Shown here one piece after another: positions 2,893-18,108 of a DNA stretch of 20,890 bases; position 1 is the first letter of the stretch, and each line of letters opens with the position of its first letter. The DNA is taken from positions 1 to 20,890 of IMG/VR virus record IMGVR_UViG_3300010412_000099; one strand, written 5' to 3'. Under the pieces are notes generated by a model. The model made no database searches. It saw only the letters and a list, made by a program, of their open reading frames with translations, and was not told the origin of the DNA. Source of the stretch: a virus. Made by a program: the position numbers and the translations under genes.

Positions 2893-2992
2893 CCCAGAAG
2901 GTCGCGCGTCTCGACCAACCGGACCACGGATGAATCGAGTCTAGCCACCGCACATGCCAACCGCAACCGTAACCCGCGTCGTGTAGCGCCCG

Positions 2993-3070
2993 CATGACAC
3001 GCGCCCCGGCCCGCTCACATGACACACGCGCCGCCCCGGCGCATGACGCTCGCGCATAACACGCCCCGGC
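2993..3070. repeat. Three imperfect GC-rich direct repeats (iteron- or operator-like)
   Basis: CATGACACGCGCCCCGGC at 2993-3010, CATGACACACGCG...GCCCCGGC at 3018-3040 and CATAACACGCCCCGGC at 3055-3070, plus a partial CATGAC at 3042-3047. The shared core is CATRACAC followed by GCCCCGGC. They lie about 110-180 bp upstream of the promoter at 3177, in a region without genes, so regulator binding or a replication role is possible. Confidence 0.5.
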
Positions 3071-3149: not shown

Positions 3150-3168
3150 GCAAGTGTCCGGCACTTGC
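3150..3168. promoter_or_regulatory. Inverted repeat next to the rightward promoter (operator candidate)
   Basis: GCAAGTG, 5-nt spacer, CACTTGC, ending 8 bp before the -35 box. A further GGCACTTGC half-site occurs at 3101-3109. The placement suits binding by a dimeric regulator. Confidence 0.5.
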
Positions 3169-3176
3169 TAGGGAAC

Positions 3177-3206
3177 TTGACAAGTCGATTACCGCTGTGG
3201 TAACTT
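3177..3206 (+). promoter_or_regulatory. Sigma70-type promoter for the plus-strand island
   Basis: TTGACA (3177-3182), 18-bp spacer, TAACTT (3201-3206). A start near 3213 would place the first transcribed bases at the outermost helix of the structured region that follows. The next gene begins only at 3748, so the transcript would carry an untranslated stretch of more than 500 nt. Confidence 0.7.
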
Positions 3207-3212
3207 GGAATT

Positions 3213-3725
3213 AGATCGCGAGGTCAGCCGGCATCAGCTAAGAGGCGAAACCGGCTCAAATCCTCAGCGATCACGGACGAAGCAACGAAGTTGCTAAAGC
3301 CGGTCGGAGCAAAGCTCCGTAGGGCGATAGGCCACGGTCCCCATGCAAGAGGGATTTCCGCAGACCCTACGGGTAAGAGGTTCCGGTTGGCGACGTCCCG
3401 GTGCCGTGGCTGATCCCACGGTAAGCGAACGGCCCGCTTTGAACGGTCGGACTCCAGAGGCCACTTCGGTGGTGCCCAAAAGGCCGCAAGCGACGGGTAG
3501 CACGCCACACGGTCCGCTGGCAACGGACACGGTGACACGGCGAGAGGAGAACCCATGGATGTGGGAAGCAACGCGGCCTATTCGAGGCGCCGTCGAACAA
3601 CAAAAGCACATAAGCCTCAGCGAAATCGCATCGGACCTCGGTCCGGCGCGTAGTGCTACGGACAACCCGTAGCGCAGATCAATGCGCATGGCTCCGCCGT
3701 GTGCATTGACCTGCAACCGCAGGAA
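3213..3725 (+). ncRNA. Candidate large structured noncoding RNA
   Basis: About 510 nt without a credible gene, packed with short perfect or near-perfect hairpins: 3214-3223/3262-3272 (one bulge) enclosing 3226-3231/3251-3256; 3281-3286/3290-3295; 3305-3310/3314-3319; 3320-3324/3365-3369; 3404-3409/3416-3421; CCAC-TTCG-GTGG at 3461-3472; 3512-3516/3524-3528; 3552-3556/3561-3565; 3576-3579/3585-3588; 3632-3636/3641-3645; 3655-3661/3667-3673; 3679-3688/3700-3709; 3710-3714/3719-3723. The first helix starts where the promoter should initiate. Linkers are A-rich. Size, hairpin density and phage context resemble the ornate large RNAs ROOL and GOLLD, but I cannot match a known consensus, so it may be a new class or a long structured 5' UTR. 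Confidence 0.6.
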
Positions 3726-3747
3726 CACAACCCTTTGGAGAACAGTC

Positions 3748-3975
3748 ATGCGTGAACGTACCCGTCAAGAACTCAGCGAACTCATCCTTGCTTACGTCGA
3801 GGAAGGCACCGACGAAAACTTCCAAGCGGTGTTCGACCGTGCGCCGGTAGGCAACTACTACGTCTACACGGACGACGGCAACCGCTACATCGTCGACCGC
3901 ACCGAGGACGCGCTCGGCCTCGAACTCGACACCGAGTACGAACCCGAGGAAGTCGAGGAAGAAGAAGCCGCCTAA
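3748..3975 (+). CDS. Small acidic hypothetical protein (75 aa)
   Basis: ATG 3748 has GGAG 8 nt upstream. The frame open farther upstream runs through the structured RNA and is not coding-like. The protein starts MRERTRQELSELILAYVEEG, has an aromatic beta segment (GNYYVYTDDGNRYIVDRTED) and a highly acidic tail (EPEEVEEEEAA). No family is recognised. As the first gene after the putative RNA, it may share its transcript. The bases after its stop (TAACGAACGAAC) recur after the amidoligase gene. Confidence 0.75.
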   Translation: MRERTRQELSELILAYVEEGTDENFQAVFDRAPVGNYYVYTDDGNRYIVDRTEDALGLELDTEYEPEEVEEEEAA

Positions 3976-5184: not shown

Positions 5185-6801
5185 ATGAACTATTTGACCA
5201 CGCCTTTTTTGCAGACGGTGTTCTCTCGGATCACGCGGGGATACACGATGCGCGACGCCGTCAAGAACACGGTGAGCAACAACCTGTCGTGCCAACTGGC
5301 GGACAGGTGGGGACAGATGCGCCTCAATAGAGAGCCTACGTTTCGGCGCCTGTTCGGCCAGGCTGAAAGCAATGCCGAGTTCATGGCCGTCAAGGCAAAG
5401 TTTGAACGCCTTGGGCGCCTGATTACGCAGGCAATCAACGAGGGCGACGGCGAGTTACTTCTCGACACGCTGAGTGAAGCTCCAGCGTTCATCAAGCGTT
5501 ACCTGATCATCGATAACTGGACAGGCCGCAACGGCGAGCTTGAGTATTTCACCTGCCACTGCTGCGCCCATGAAGTGTTCGGCGAAGCCCACGGGTCAGA
5601 CGAGTGCGACAACCTTTTGTGCGAATCGTGCGTTGAGCGCGACTACCTCTACTCATCGGTCATGGGCGCCTATGTCCACAGCGGTGTCGCGTGGCCGGTC
5701 TACGACTGCCTTGGCGCATACGAACGTCAGGACGCTGACGATTGGGTTACGAGCGACTTCGGGCGACACCGCCGCGATCTGCTGCGGCCCGACAACGGCG
5801 ACCACTGCTTTTTCAGCAGCGAGGAAGCGTACGAGGACTGGTACGCAAGCTACTACGACAACGACTACGACGAAGATGACGACGACAGTCGATCTTCGAG
5901 GCTGATTCAGGACTATCACTCGGGCGACGAGGTCGGCCACATTCCGTCTGCATACGACAAGCGCAAGCCCGGCGTGTGGATGGGACTCGAACTTGAGATC
6001 GAGTGCGGATCCAATATCCGAGACGAAATCGCCGAGTCGATCAACAACCATGTCAACACGGACCGGCGCTACGTCATGTTCGAGGAGGACGGATCCCTCA
6101 GCCATGGGTTCGAGGTCATTTCCGGATACACCGGACTCGACACGCACGAGGCATGGCTCAAGCGGTTCGCCAATGCCAACCTGAAAGGCTGCAAGTCCCA
6201 CGACACGAATACGTGCGGGCTGCATGTTCACATCACGAAGGCGGACCTCTCGCCGTTTGAGGCTGCCAGGCTGATGCTGTTCATCCATAACCCGTCGAAC
6301 GAAAAGCTGATCCGCGCCGTCGCCCGTCGGTACGGCAAGTCAGCCGGGTACGCGAAGTTCGTCGACAAGACAGCGTCTATCGGCGACAGCGACCGCGCCA
6401 TTCATGCGGCGGTTCTGGCGAAAAACAACCTGACCTGCATGAACTACGACCGCTATGAAGCGCTGAATTTCCAGCCCCGCAAAACGGTCGAGTTCCGCCT
6501 GTATCGGGGAACGCTCAAGGTCGAAACCATCATGGCCTGCCTTGAGTTCACTTGGCTGAGCTACTTCTTTGCCAAGCAAACCAGCATCACTCATCTCGGA
6601 ACGGAGGACTTCATCAAGTGGATTAGCTTGCCTCAGAACAAGAGGGAGTCGCGCTACCTGCGCCGACTCCTGCGGGCCAAGGGAATCATCCCTGCGGCCA
6701 GCACACCCGTCGCGCTCGAAGCAGAGACGTCCGACGGCACAAACGCGGAGCCGCCTGAACCCAGGCTTCGCCGCTGCGAACGTGAAGCGCTCGCCGCCTA
6801 A
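5185..6801 (+). CDS. Amidoligase-family enzyme with N-terminal zinc cluster (538 aa)
   Basis: Residues 264-500 fit the putative amidoligase family (COOH-NH2 ligases with a glutamine-synthetase-like fold): GLELEIE (267-273), EEDGS followed by GFEVIS (300-313), CGLHVHI (344-350) and TVEFRLYRGT (434-443), containing the acidic, His and Arg residues expected for ATP/metal binding. Such enzymes join amines to carboxyl groups, often on peptides or proteins. The N-terminal 260 residues are an extra region with a cysteine cluster (C124-x2-C127, C141, C146-x2-C149) likely to bind zinc, then a very acidic linker (about 225-236). The start at 5185 follows CGGAGATCAC. The next gene is a class II amidotransferase, a known partner type. 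The substrate is unknown. The family call is confident; activity is inferred. Confidence 0.85.
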   Translation: MNYLTTPFLQTVFSRITRGYTMRDAVKNTVSNNLSCQLADRWGQMRLNREPTFRRLFGQAESNAEFMAVKAKFERLGRLITQAINEGDGELLLDTLSEAPAFIKRYLIIDNWTGRNGELEYFTCHCCAHEVFGEAHGSDECDNLLCESCVERDYLYSSVMGAYVHSGVAWPVYDCLGAYERQDADDWVTSDFGRHRRDLLRPDNGDHCFFSSEEAYEDWYASYYDNDYDEDDDDSRSSRLIQDYHSGDEVGHIPSAYDKRKPGVWMGLELEIECGSNIRDEIAESINNHVNTDRRYVMFEEDGSLSHGFEVISGYTGLDTHEAWLKRFANANLKGCKSHDTNTCGLHVHITKADLSPFEAARLMLFIHNPSNEKLIRAVARRYGKSAGYAKFVDKTASIGDSDRAIHAAVLAKNNLTCMNYDRYEALNFQPRKTVEFRLYRGTLKVETIMACLEFTWLSYFFAKQTSITHLGTEDFIKWISLPQNKRESRYLRRLLRAKGIIPAASTPVALEAETSDGTNAEPPEPRLRRCEREALAA

Positions 6802-6831: not shown

Positions 6832-7788
6832 ATGTGTCTACTCATTACGCAAAAAGCTACTTCCCCGTTGCTCGACGACGAACAGATCGCCGACTTCTAC
6901 TGGTACAACTCAGACGGAATCGGCGTCATGTATTCAGACGGCGAGAAGTTGCACATCAAAAAAGCCCTGCCGAAAGACAGTGCGCAAGCCATCGACTTCT
7001 GGCGCGAGAACGTGGACGGCAAGGACTGCGCCATCCATCTCAGGATGCGCACCCATGGCGACGTCAGCCTTGAGAACTGCCACCCGTACGAGGTGCTGCC
7101 CGGCCTGTGGCTGATGCACAACGGGGTTCTCCAGATCGGCAACGAGGGCGACAAGACCAAGTCGGACACCTGGCACTACATCGAGCGCTACCTGCGCCCG
7201 CTGCTCAATGGCAGCGTCGACCTCGCGTTCGACCCCGCGTTCATCGAGATCATCTCCGATCACATCGGGATCTCGAACAAGTTCGTGATGATGGACTGGT
7301 CGGGGCGCGTTGCCCACTTCAACTACGAACTCGGCGTCGAGTGGAACGAACGGTGGATGTCGAACAGATACGCATGGACGCAGCCAGGCGAGAAACGCTT
7401 TGCCCGTCACCAGTATCGCTCGTCGTATCTGGACAAGTTCGACTACGGATGGGAAGGCGGATACATGACGCCGTCCCTTGCCGAGGAGAAGGTCAGAAGC
7501 GTCAACGTGCAGTTCACCGCCGACGCTTGGGACGAGGACGACGGCGAGGCGCCTGCAATTCCGGTCGACTTCGACGTTGACGAGGTGCTTGACTACCTCG
7601 ATCACGCCGGACTCTACAAGGCAGCGTCCGTGTCGAAGAACCAGGCCATTGCATTCGCCAAGCGCTTCGGCACGAACGAGCTTTGGGATCTCGCGTCAAT
7701 GCTGGACGAGGGTGACATTGATGAGCACCAGTTCATCAGGTTCATCTCGGACTTCCGCGCTTACCGTGAAACAGCCTGCGGCTGCTAG
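6832..7788 (+). CDS. Class II glutamine amidotransferase-like protein (318 aa)
   Basis: The N-terminal half shows the Ntn-hydrolase glutaminase signature: Cys2 directly after the initiator Met (MCLLITQ), NSDGIGV at 26-32, RMRTHG at 71-76 and LMHNGVL at 94-100 with SDT at 111-113. In this family Cys2, freed by Met removal, hydrolyses glutamine to release ammonia. The C-terminal roughly 150 residues are acidic and carry no synthetase domain, so ammonia would go to another protein. The amidoligase 30 nt upstream is the obvious candidate. A roughly 70-residue helical tail (DVDEVLDYLDHAGLY...) may mediate interaction. The start is fixed by CGGAGATCAC and the Cys2 requirement. Protein hydrolysis rather than transfer cannot be excluded. 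Confidence 0.85.
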   Translation: MCLLITQKATSPLLDDEQIADFYWYNSDGIGVMYSDGEKLHIKKALPKDSAQAIDFWRENVDGKDCAIHLRMRTHGDVSLENCHPYEVLPGLWLMHNGVLQIGNEGDKTKSDTWHYIERYLRPLLNGSVDLAFDPAFIEIISDHIGISNKFVMMDWSGRVAHFNYELGVEWNERWMSNRYAWTQPGEKRFARHQYRSSYLDKFDYGWEGGYMTPSLAEEKVRSVNVQFTADAWDEDDGEAPAIPVDFDVDEVLDYLDHAGLYKAASVSKNQAIAFAKRFGTNELWDLASMLDEGDIDEHQFIRFISDFRAYRETACGC

Positions 7789-8343: not shown

Positions 8344-9429
8344 ATGAACGACAACTGGACATACCGTGCATCCCAGCAGTGGCGTACCCGTCCCGATGAC
8401 GAGCGCTTCCTGTCCCTCGACGAAATGCTCGAACACTTCGAGGCAGTCCGCGCGAACTCAGCCGCCAGGGTGGTTGCGAATCGACGCATCGTTGCCATGC
8501 CGGAGGACGACAATCAAGGCATGGTGATCGAGGTGGACGACGAGCGCATGGCGCCGACCCACTTCTCGTTTGGTCAGTTGGCGAATCTCGCCGACGCACC
8601 GGCCGGGTACTTGCGCAAGCTGCCGTCCCCGATTGCCGCCGACTGCGTCAACTACGGACTGCAGTTCAGGCGCGACATCGAGGAGGTTGGCCTGCTTTCG
8701 TACAAGAACGGCGGCCCTCCGACGCTCCGCGCTGCGACCGGGCCGCGATACGGACGCATCTGGAACGCCCCCATTGTCGAAGCGCTGATCCGCCAGTTCG
8801 GCGACGGCGTATCCGGCGACGGGTTCCGCGTGCCTGGGGAGTTCGGCATGGAAGTTCCGATCACCCGTCAGAACACCACCTTGTACGCATCGGACCGGGA
8901 TATGTTCGTGTTCCTGGCTGACGAACGGAATCGCATCGAGGTTCCGAACCGTCGGGACGGAAAGACAGGATCGCTGGCCCGTGGATTCTTCGTGTGGAAC
9001 AGCGAGGTGGGCGACAAGACGTTCGGCCTTGCGAAGTTCCTCATGGACTTTGCCTGCATGAACCGGATCATCTGGGGCGGGCAGGACTACGAGGAAATCA
9101 CGATCAGGCACACGGCCTCTGCTCCCCAGCGCTTCATCGAGGAGATCGCCCCGGCCCTGGAAAGCTACGCCAAGTCCAGCACCATGACCGTGACGCAGGC
9201 CATCGAGGACGCAAGGTCGAAGCGCCTCGACGACGTCGACTCGTTCCTCAAGAACAGGTTCGGCGCCCGCCTCGTGGACACGATCAAGGCGACGCACCAA
9301 CTCGAAGAAGGCAGGCCCATCGAGACGGTGTGGGACGCGGTCACTGGCATCACCGCCTACGCCAAGAGCATCCAGCATCAGGATGCACGCATTGCCGTTG
9401 AGCGTGAGGCCGGGAAGCTACTGGTCTAA
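8344..9429 (+). CDS. DUF932 domain protein (361 aa)
   Basis: The full length matches the phage/plasmid DUF932 family. Recognisable blocks are the N-terminal THFSFGQLANLADAPAGYLRK, the LSYKNGGPPTLRAATGPRYG segment, the DRDMFVFLADE strand, ARGFFVWNSEVGDKTFGLAKF and the helical C-terminus. Members are common on phages and plasmids, often near recombination or modification genes, and their biochemical role is not settled. The start is supported by AGGAGATCA. No nuclease motif or membrane segment is visible. It is followed by TAACGAACAAACGC, a variant of a motif that recurs after other genes here. Confidence 0.85.
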   Translation: MNDNWTYRASQQWRTRPDDERFLSLDEMLEHFEAVRANSAARVVANRRIVAMPEDDNQGMVIEVDDERMAPTHFSFGQLANLADAPAGYLRKLPSPIAADCVNYGLQFRRDIEEVGLLSYKNGGPPTLRAATGPRYGRIWNAPIVEALIRQFGDGVSGDGFRVPGEFGMEVPITRQNTTLYASDRDMFVFLADERNRIEVPNRRDGKTGSLARGFFVWNSEVGDKTFGLAKFLMDFACMNRIIWGGQDYEEITIRHTASAPQRFIEEIAPALESYAKSSTMTVTQAIEDARSKRLDDVDSFLKNRFGARLVDTIKATHQLEEGRPIETVWDAVTGITAYAKSIQHQDARIAVEREAGKLLV

Positions 9430-10111: not shown

Positions 10112-10434
10112 CCCCTGAACAATTCTCCGCCGCCACTGACGGCAAGCGCCTGACCGCAAAGGTTCGCCGTGCCTTGCGCATGGTGATGGTCGAGGGCAAG
10201 ACCTGGCGCGAAGCCGCACACAAGACTGGCGTCCACGAGTCCTCGATCATGAGGGCCAAGGCAAAGCTGAACAACATCGGACAGTTGCCGATCATCGAGG
10301 TGCCGAAAGGATCTCGATGGTTCGACGCCACCTCATACACGCCGATGCATCCAACAGAACTGGGGGCTGTGGCCCATCTCGTAGACGACGAGTGGATCCC
10401 GGTCTATCGGTTCATCACAAAGGAATCAACATGA
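10108..10434 (+). CDS. KorA/TrfB-type DNA-binding protein (108 aa)
   Basis: Residues 1-54 fit the TrfB/KorA regulator pattern: MTPEQFSAATDGKRL, AKVRRALRMVMVEGKTWREA, and a helix-turn-helix AHKTGVHESSIMRAKAKL. Plasmid KorA proteins of this type repress replication and transfer promoters. Here it may regulate the phage operon. The remaining residues (about 55-108) form an unrelated short tail ending VPVYRFITKEST-like. The start overlaps the preceding stop and the stop overlaps the deacetylase start (both ATGA), so its dosage is tied to these neighbours. Target sites are unknown; the inverted repeat at 3150-3168 is one candidate. Confidence 0.75.
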   Translation: MTPEQFSAATDGKRLTAKVRRALRMVMVEGKTWREAAHKTGVHESSIMRAKAKLNNIGQLPIIEVPKGSRWFDATSYTPMHPTELGAVAHLVDDEWIPVYRFITKEST

Positions 10435-11336
10435 CAAAAGTTTTCTACCGACCAGAGATGTCGGTCAACACGCGCAGCTTTTCCCCGTCCGCCGACAAGC
10501 CACGACTGGCCGTCGAGGACTGGCTCACGCACCCAGACCTGGCGCACTGTCGCCCCACCATCATGAGCTTCAGTCCGCTCGACAGGTACGCATTGGAGGA
10601 TGCCCACTCGCCCGAATACATCGAGGACGTTTTCTCGGGGGAGCGGTCGAACGGATTCGGCAACCGCGATCCTGCGGTGGCCGAGGCGTGCCTGTATACG
10701 ACGGCGTCGATGCTGGCAGCGGCGAGGTGGGCATGGGAGAACAAGACCAACACCTGCTCCCCGACCTCTGGGTTCCACCACGCTGGCCGCAACTTCGGCG
10801 GCGGGTTCTGCACGTTCAACGGACTGGCAATCGCAACCCTGCGCCTGCTGATCGGGCCGGAGAACTGCAGGCGGCGCATCCTCATCCTCGACCTGGATCA
10901 GCACGCCGGTAACGGGACCAGCGACATCCTGCTTTGCGTAAAGACTCAGTGCCACGGGAAGTACAACACCGTCCGGCATTTCTCTGCCGGCGAGCATCGC
11001 TTGCGCGACTGGCTGGACGTTCGCCAGTTCATCTACGACGCCTTCGACTCCGACTACCACGAGATCATTCTCTTTCAGGCGGGAGCGGACATGCACATCA
11101 ACGATCCGCTCGGCGGCCTGCTCGATACGGAGGAGATGAAGGCGAGGGACGAACTCGTGTTCAGGCTCGCCGCCAAGAGGCGAATCCCCGTGGCGTGGAA
11201 CCTGGCCGGGGGCTACCAAACGGACGAGGACGGATCAATAGCTCCGGTCCTCGCCATCCACCGCAACACTTACCTGGCGTGCGTCAATGAATCCAAACTT
11301 GAAGAACCTAGCGGCTCAGATAGCGCAACTGCTTGA
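10431..11336 (+). CDS. Histone-deacetylase-family amidohydrolase (301 aa)
   Basis: The sequence follows the arginase/deacetylase-fold HDAC superfamily: HH at 116-117 within SGFHHAGRNFGGGFCTFNGLAIA, DLDQHAGNGT (154-163) with likely zinc ligands D156 and H158, AGAD-x-H-x-x-DPLGGL with zinc ligand D220, and GGY at 260-262 supplying the transition-state tyrosine. All catalytic positions appear kept. Family members remove acyl groups from lysine, polyamines or other amides. At 301 residues it is a bare catalytic domain. It starts at ATG 10431, overlapping the KorA-like gene. Deacetylases are uncommon in phages, and the target (host protein, polyamine, modified phage product) is unknown. Confidence 0.85.
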   Translation: MTKVFYRPEMSVNTRSFSPSADKPRLAVEDWLTHPDLAHCRPTIMSFSPLDRYALEDAHSPEYIEDVFSGERSNGFGNRDPAVAEACLYTTASMLAAARWAWENKTNTCSPTSGFHHAGRNFGGGFCTFNGLAIATLRLLIGPENCRRRILILDLDQHAGNGTSDILLCVKTQCHGKYNTVRHFSAGEHRLRDWLDVRQFIYDAFDSDYHEIILFQAGADMHINDPLGGLLDTEEMKARDELVFRLAAKRRIPVAWNLAGGYQTDEDGSIAPVLAIHRNTYLACVNESKLEEPSGSDSATA

Positions 11337-17716: not shown

Positions 17717-17745
17717 AATTTACTCGTGCAAAAATCTTCTGTCAA
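17717..17745 (-). promoter_or_regulatory. Strong sigma70-type promoter for the leftward replication/lysis operon
   Basis: Minus-strand TTGACA (17745-17740), 17-bp spacer, TAAATT (17722-17717). Transcription would begin near 17710. The -35 box overlaps the TGA stop of the regulator gene. The sequence AATGCAAT at 17712-17719, a 7-of-8 match to the ACTGCAAT operator unit, overlaps the -10 box, hinting at repression by the regulator. Confidence 0.8.
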
Positions 17746-17975
17746 GCCCTCCTGCGAATTTTTTCCCGCTCCTTCTTGGCAGCGATGACGAGTTCCACCG
17801 ATAGCTCGGGGTGGACCCGCTTCATTTCTGCGAAGAAGTCTAGCGAAGGAAGGCTGTAAGCGCCAGCCAGTTTTTCAACATAGCCTGGCGTGGTCCCCAT
17901 TCGCGCCGCCCTTTTGGCGCGTTCGTCCTGCGTCCCTTTGAGCAGGATGCGTCGTAGCTCTGTGATGTGTTTCAT
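17742..17975 (-). CDS. Small Cro/CI-like helix-turn-helix regulator (77 aa)
   Basis: The product (MKHITELRRILLKGTQDERAK..., then RAARMGTTPGYVEKLAGAYS) fits a small phage repressor or Cro protein, with a helix-turn-helix near residues 18-42 and a basic tail (KKEREKIRRRA). It sits between divergent promoters, the classic position of a phage switch. Its own promoter (17982-18011) would start transcription at or next to the ATG, giving a leaderless mRNA like the lambda cI message from PRM. It likely binds the 10-bp-spaced repeats upstream. Whether it acts as repressor, Cro or antitoxin-like factor is not certain. Confidence 0.75.
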   Translation of the reverse strand: MKHITELRRILLKGTQDERAKRAARMGTTPGYVEKLAGAYSLPSLDFFAEMKRVHPELSVELVIAAKKEREKIRRRA

Positions 17976-18011: not shown

Positions 18012-18093
18012 GACGGCCTGAGACAACCTGAGACAACCTGAGACAGTATGAGACTGCAATGCACTGCAATGCACTGCAATGCACTGCAATGCA
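18011..18093. repeat. Continuous 10-bp-periodic repeat array (operator candidate)
   Basis: Units follow with exact 10-bp spacing: AGACGGCCTG, AGACAACCTG twice, AGACAGTATG, AGACTGCAAT, then GCACTGCAAT three times (18061-18090) and a trailing GCA. The first series shares AGAC and the second shares ACTGCAAT, with the fifth unit bridging the two. Ten-base spacing places every copy on one face of the helix, as for cooperative regulator binding. It fills the gap between the regulator promoter and the rightward promoter. An origin role is the alternative. Confidence 0.75.
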
Positions 18094-18108
18094 AGAACAC
18101 CGTTCCGG

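Follow-up and report, generated by a model that had tools for sequence, protein, structure and literature searches.

The window analysed here, at 20,890 bases, is an entire IMG/VR virus record, and its source is an uncultured bacteriophage. Its replication genes show short matches to phages of Burkholderia and Pseudomonas, and Polynucleobacter genomes contain relatives of its amidoligase, so that a Burkholderiales host is likely as judged from these matches. A leftward block of genes is followed by a rightward operon starting at 3748, which contains small orphan genes in addition to those listed below, and between the two lies the region for which an ornate RNA of about 510 nt had been proposed (hereafter the original prediction).

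up to 2868, minus strand: leftward block of ORFs
2987..3055, no strand assigned: imperfect GC-rich tandem repeat of period 25 with 2.8 copies of a ATGACACGCGCCCCGG-like unit (Tandem Repeats Finder score 75)
3177..3206, plus strand: plausible predicted sigma-70 promoter
3748..3975, plus strand: first gene of the rightward operon, encoding an acidic protein of 75 aa, with GGAG just 5′ (codon score +0.71)
5185..6801, plus strand: amidoligase-family gene of the rightward operon (PF12224 above cut-off; phrog_16683, E 3.7e-27)
6832-7788, rightward operon: glutamine-amidotransferase-like gene
8344-9429, rightward operon: DUF932 gene
up to 17240, leftward: lysis/primase/helicase block
right end of the window: Erf-like and exonuclease genes

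The amidoligase gene served as synteny anchor for comparing phages, while the first gene of the operon had no relatives in viral contigs and no match in Pfam or PHROG. The gene at 10434-11336, also lacking a PHROG match, contains the motifs HHAG and DLDQHAGNG, from which we assume that it resembles the histone-deacetylase/acetylpolyamine-amidohydrolase family.

The promoter was read by eye and consists of a consensus -35 element (TTGACA, 3177-3182), an 18-nt spacer, and an extended TGG preceding the -10 element TAACTT (TGG-TAACTT at 3198-3206, with the hexamer at 3201-3206). The -10 element matches the consensus at 3 of 6 bases, and a consensus promoter scan did not pick up the site, so that what was originally described as a good promoter is good in its -35 element and extended TGG but not in its -10 element. 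Transcription is predicted to start at approximately 3213, one base 5′ of the first helix at 3214, and the outermost helix at the 5′ end (3214-3219/3267-3272), with a pair probability of 1.0, is indeed positioned at the expected start. No intrinsic terminator was found on the plus strand between 3213 and the ATG at 3748, and this ATG follows a Shine-Dalgarno sequence (GGAG) directly downstream, confirming that the next gene has its own ribosome site. In the absence of a terminator before the ATG, the simplest reading is that of a long structured 5′ leader joined to the rightward operon, with the arrangement of an operon leader: a promoter upstream (albeit with a weak -10), no terminator, and a ribosome site and gene directly downstream.

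Codon usage, scored with a model trained on this phage, identifies 3213-3747 as noncoding, subject to one small reservation. The longer ORFs of the stretch scored -0.11 to -0.51 and the best short frame -0.06, compared with +0.16 to +0.71 for the 18 real genes of the phage, and none of the ORFs had a Pfam family or a convincing PHROG match. This agrees with the original view that there is no credible gene here, and no signal of protein-level conservation was detected in any frame. The reservation concerns two overlapping ORFs behind an AGGAG sequence:

3555-3653, plus strand: ORF of 32 aa, arginine-rich (codon score -0.35)
3559-3672, plus strand: ORF of 37 aa (codon score -0.06)

Were one of these translated, a small gene would divide the region into a short leader and an intergenic cluster of hairpins; the AGGAG is placed at the usual spacing, much as for other genes of this phage, and the middle of the region lacks excess RNA structure. 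However, both codon scores are negative, -0.35 is below the score of every 31-codon stretch from the real genes of this phage, and neither ORF had a family match or a tblastn match, which makes a small gene at this position very unlikely.

The predicted fold of 3213-3725 has a free energy of -228.4 kcal/mol, with a z-score of -5.07 on the plus strand and -3.55 on the minus strand. It contains 9 hairpins with a perfect Watson-Crick stem of ≥5 bp, versus 3.3 ± 1.5 in dinucleotide shuffles (0/200 shuffles reached 9); the proposed excess of hairpins thus withstood the shuffle comparison that had been named beforehand, although only 9 such hairpins were counted rather than the at least 13 stems claimed. 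In a structure scan of the window using 200-nt pieces, 3601-3800 and 3151-3350 on the plus strand were among the most structured, and 3301-3500 and 3451-3650 were ordinary. The features of the fold are as follows:

3214..3398, plus strand: 5′ structured domain (z -5.28; 0/200 shuffles equally stable; helix pair probabilities 0.94-1.0)
3214-3272, plus strand: P1/P1b/P2 hairpin within the 5′ domain
3275-3279/3394-3398, plus strand: closing helix of the 5′ domain, enclosing a hairpin and the inner helices
3281-3295, plus strand: hairpin inside the closing helix
3299-3310/3380-3391, plus strand: 12-bp helix inside the closing helix
3317-3324/3365-3372, plus strand: 8-bp helix inside the closing helix
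3336-3356, plus strand: hairpin inside the closing helix
3399..3652, plus strand: middle stretch of 254 nt without excess structure (z -0.55 versus shuffles)
3653..3723, plus strand: three abutting hairpins (z -8.1 on the plus strand, -4.96 on the minus strand; pair probabilities 0.96-0.99)
3653-3675, plus strand: hairpin of 9 bp
3679-3709, plus strand: hairpin of 14 bp, two of them G-U
3710-3723, plus strand: hairpin of 5 bp

Neither structured block was matched in stability by any of 200 shuffles. Given the z-scores of -5.3, -0.55 and -8.1 along the region, the notion of one continuous ornate RNA over 510 nt had to be abandoned: the structure is confined to 3214-3398 and 3653-3723, two blocks around an ordinary middle (3399-3652). 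Pairing in this middle stretch is mostly uncertain, with the exception of 3465-3476/3586-3597, 3481-3487/3573-3579 and two short hairpins. In the best fold, several hairpins give way to longer-range pairings, among them the C(UUCG)G hairpin of the original prediction, which lies at about 3460-3475. Repeated CACGG motifs (6 copies) were within the range of shuffled sequences, and a CsrA-type GGA sponge was rejected, as the GGA count was close to that expected from composition (hand estimate).

A functionless, GC-rich intergenic sequence carrying a few hairpins could show structure of this strength by chance, as approximately one-fifth of ORF-free gaps of at least 220 nt in the fetched phage loci reached z ≤ -5 on one strand (27/142, a rough count with only 12 shuffles per gap and with near-duplicate loci included). 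Against this, there are two separate blocks, each with 0/200 shuffles as stable, and 500 nt of noncoding sequence is costly for a phage genome; we consider chance highly improbable, and the least likely of the explanations discussed here.

The plus strand folds better than the minus strand at both blocks (z -5.3 versus -4.3 for the 5′ domain), partly by G-U pairs that only the plus-strand RNA gains, but the minus strand also exceeds its shuffles. The region furthermore lies between divergent operons, near the tandem repeat at 2987-3055, a possible operator or iteron array, and these properties would suit a control region functioning at the DNA level (a replication origin, operator or similar), in which hairpins and repeats act as DNA and RNA structure is secondary. 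Related phages have AT-rich repeats at the same place. In five of them a mostly noncoding region of 1.2-1.4 kb, ~65-92% identical among the five, is located directly upstream of a rightward amidoligase gene:

L105:6126-7463, noncoding region
L107:6131-7451, noncoding region
L104:1232-2539, noncoding region
L098:1036-2351, noncoding region
L101:1295-2677, noncoding region

As in the window, the far side of this region is flanked by a leftward block in L105 and L107. AT-rich repeats (TTAACTTAATC / ACATAATC) are numerous in it, and a TTGACA resembling a promoter element is found towards its right side; the whole has the look of a control region or replication origin. The leader of the window has no sequence match in it and is not alignable with it, and the consensus fold of the leader part in the five relatives was weak, with few helices (-23.9 kcal/mol; two of the five sequences shortened there); the relatives therefore provide positional support rather than homology, in that several phages of this group have a noncoding control region at the site ahead of the amidoligase. 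A DNA-level role for the window region itself is unlikely, since the plus strand is consistently the better folded, the repeat at 2987-3055 sits between the leftward genes and the rightward promoter and hence outside 3213-3725, and the stretch is GC-rich with no melting region. A different noncoding element, 350-400 nt in length and with 73-91% identity from phage to phage, was observed at L094:5484-5860, L106:5691-6101 and L097:4805-5122; in L094 and L106 it is bounded by matching GGACAGGTTTCTGTCC-like palindromes whose core is TATATATAAATA, and it is possibly an origin or a mobile element.

Searches for homologues of the leader were negative throughout. None of 4227 Rfam models, including those for ROOL, GOLLD, OLE and HEARO as suggested with the original prediction, matched at the gathering score or up to E 10, and membership of OLE, HEARO or any other Rfam family was thus rejected. 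The suggested nucleotide search likewise found no phage homologue, as blastn against phage and plasmid records returned nothing or chance pieces of 23-44 nt, and single-protein queries for relatives found none. Of 80 loci with DUF932 relatives, none had the amidoligase or the RNA, and the RNA was absent by blastn, nhmmer and covariance models from 80 viral and 38 genome loci with amidoligase-domain relatives. Samples of ~400 Burkholderiales and ~400 Pseudomonadota genomes gave scattered hits of 20-40 nt only, with the covariance models returning nothing, and three DNA patterns searched in viral contigs gave hits that fail to extend, the best of which (in L349) was rejected as it lies inside a large protein-coding frame, terminase-like in appearance. 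The element thus appears to be a singleton in the data searched; as the two covariance models were each made from a single block of this one sequence and have limited reach, and as the collections may lack records close to the window, this absence of matches is not proof of uniqueness. Without a homologue there is no support from covariation, and the claim of a new class of large RNA stays unproven.

ROOL RNAs are similar in length to this region of ~510 nt and are frequently, but not obligatorily, located near tRNA genes in phages and prophages. The region resembles them in being phage-borne, noncoding and multi-helix and of similar length, but differs in having no covariance-model match up to E 10, no tRNA nearby (no tRNA genes were found in the 20.9-kb window) and a middle without excess structure. 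Both ROOL and GOLLD have been found in phages, and many GOLLD members are >800 nt, with a conserved 3′ half and often a location near tRNA islands (PMC12286853). The likeness to GOLLD is that of a phage-borne large structured RNA, again with no Rfam match and no tRNA nearby, and with the failed family test and the missing tRNA setting the comparison with ROOL and GOLLD fails. A free-standing RNA in the style of these families, transcribed with the operon and then cut out or accumulating alone to act in trans, would fit a noncoding phage region of ~510 nt with significant structure, but we doubt it, as there is no Rfam match, no tRNA and no terminator, the middle 254 nt show no excess structure, and the sequence is absent from every other genome searched. 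That the region represents a novel phage RNA class, in which a transcript of ~500 nt with a 185-nt compact 5′ domain and a 3′ block of three hairpins functions as an independent RNA or as a polymerase-modifying leader without known parallel, is distinctly unlikely. A new ROOL/GOLLD-like class of large structured RNA is neither supported nor refuted, as one sequence cannot carry such a claim, which is light in weight until a second sequence turns up.

The region is real, noncoding and partly structured, and is most likely an orphan operon leader. We consider it moderately probable that 3213-3747 serves the rightward operon as a 5′ untranslated leader and acts in cis on expression of this operon, with transcription start, co-transcription and cis-regulatory role being predicted from the sequence. 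The alternative offered in the original prediction, an unusually elaborate 5′ UTR, fits best: a promoter leads into a structured domain at the start, a terminator is lacking, and the ribosome site with its gene follows at once. Its noncoding nature, the structure at both ends, the better folding of the transcribed strand, the helix at the start and the lack of a terminator favour the leader; the lack of a homologue, the weak -10 element unreported by the scan and the unmatched region of the relatives count against it. RNA polymerase would start at about 3213, the first 185 nt would fold into the compact multi-helix domain, and after the ordinary middle the three abutting hairpins would form just 5′ of the ribosome site of the first gene. 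The leader could then act in cis on the elongating polymerase, via pausing, attenuation or antitermination, or expose or hide the ribosome site preceding the first gene (ATG 3748). In the best fold, positions 3405-3412 pair with 3743-3750 across the start codon (probability 0.62), but such sequestration is at chance level (11/100 shuffled leaders cover the site equally) and is a mere lead. Action on polymerase is slightly preferred here over control of translation, given that folding sets in right at the transcript start and that pairing of the start codon does not exceed chance.

A second leader-like element precedes the leftward helicase/primase operon:

17745-17545, minus strand: second leader-like element
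17745-17717, minus strand: strong promoter TTGACA-17-TAAATT
17682-17671/17623-17612, minus strand: 12-bp helix crossing the other helices
17673-17665/17560-17552, minus strand: 9-bp helix with a T run at the end of the element
17661-17646/17578-17563, minus strand: 16-bp helix
17642-17630/17605-17593, minus strand: 13-bp helix

The stretch 17710-17545 on the minus strand has a z-score of -4.6, and the element ends in a terminator-like T run; candidate interpretations are a terminated small RNA containing a pseudoknot and an attenuator able to adopt two alternative folds. There is no convincing sequence likeness between the leader at 3213 and this element at 17.5 kb, yet its presence supports operon control as a theme common to both operons. 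RNAs of the HK022 putRNA type act on RNA polymerase via the beta′ zinc-binding domain. The HK022 put RNAs are ~70 nt long, with two stem-loops and sequence common to both RNAs, and work on polymerase (PMC9378689). Shared with putL and putR are a noncoding RNA behind an early promoter, abutting stem-loops, an operon-level position, and a structured element behind a promoter at two operons of the phage; in contrast, the leader here is ~535 nt. Membership of the putRNA type was rejected, as adjacent stem-loops are present but the 3213 leader and the 17710 element share no convincing sequence. To our knowledge, no such leader element has been described in the amidoligase phage lineage. Should RNA polymerase or the ribosome site be the target of the leader, this would be a further case of phage operon control by RNA alone, and two operons apparently headed by structured elements make this phage a tidy test case. 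Finally, tandem decamer repeats at 18017-18094 (ACTGCAATGC, 4.1 copies, and CCTGAGACAA, 2.9 copies) are located upstream of a small leftward gene (17742-17975), and are operator- or iteron-like.
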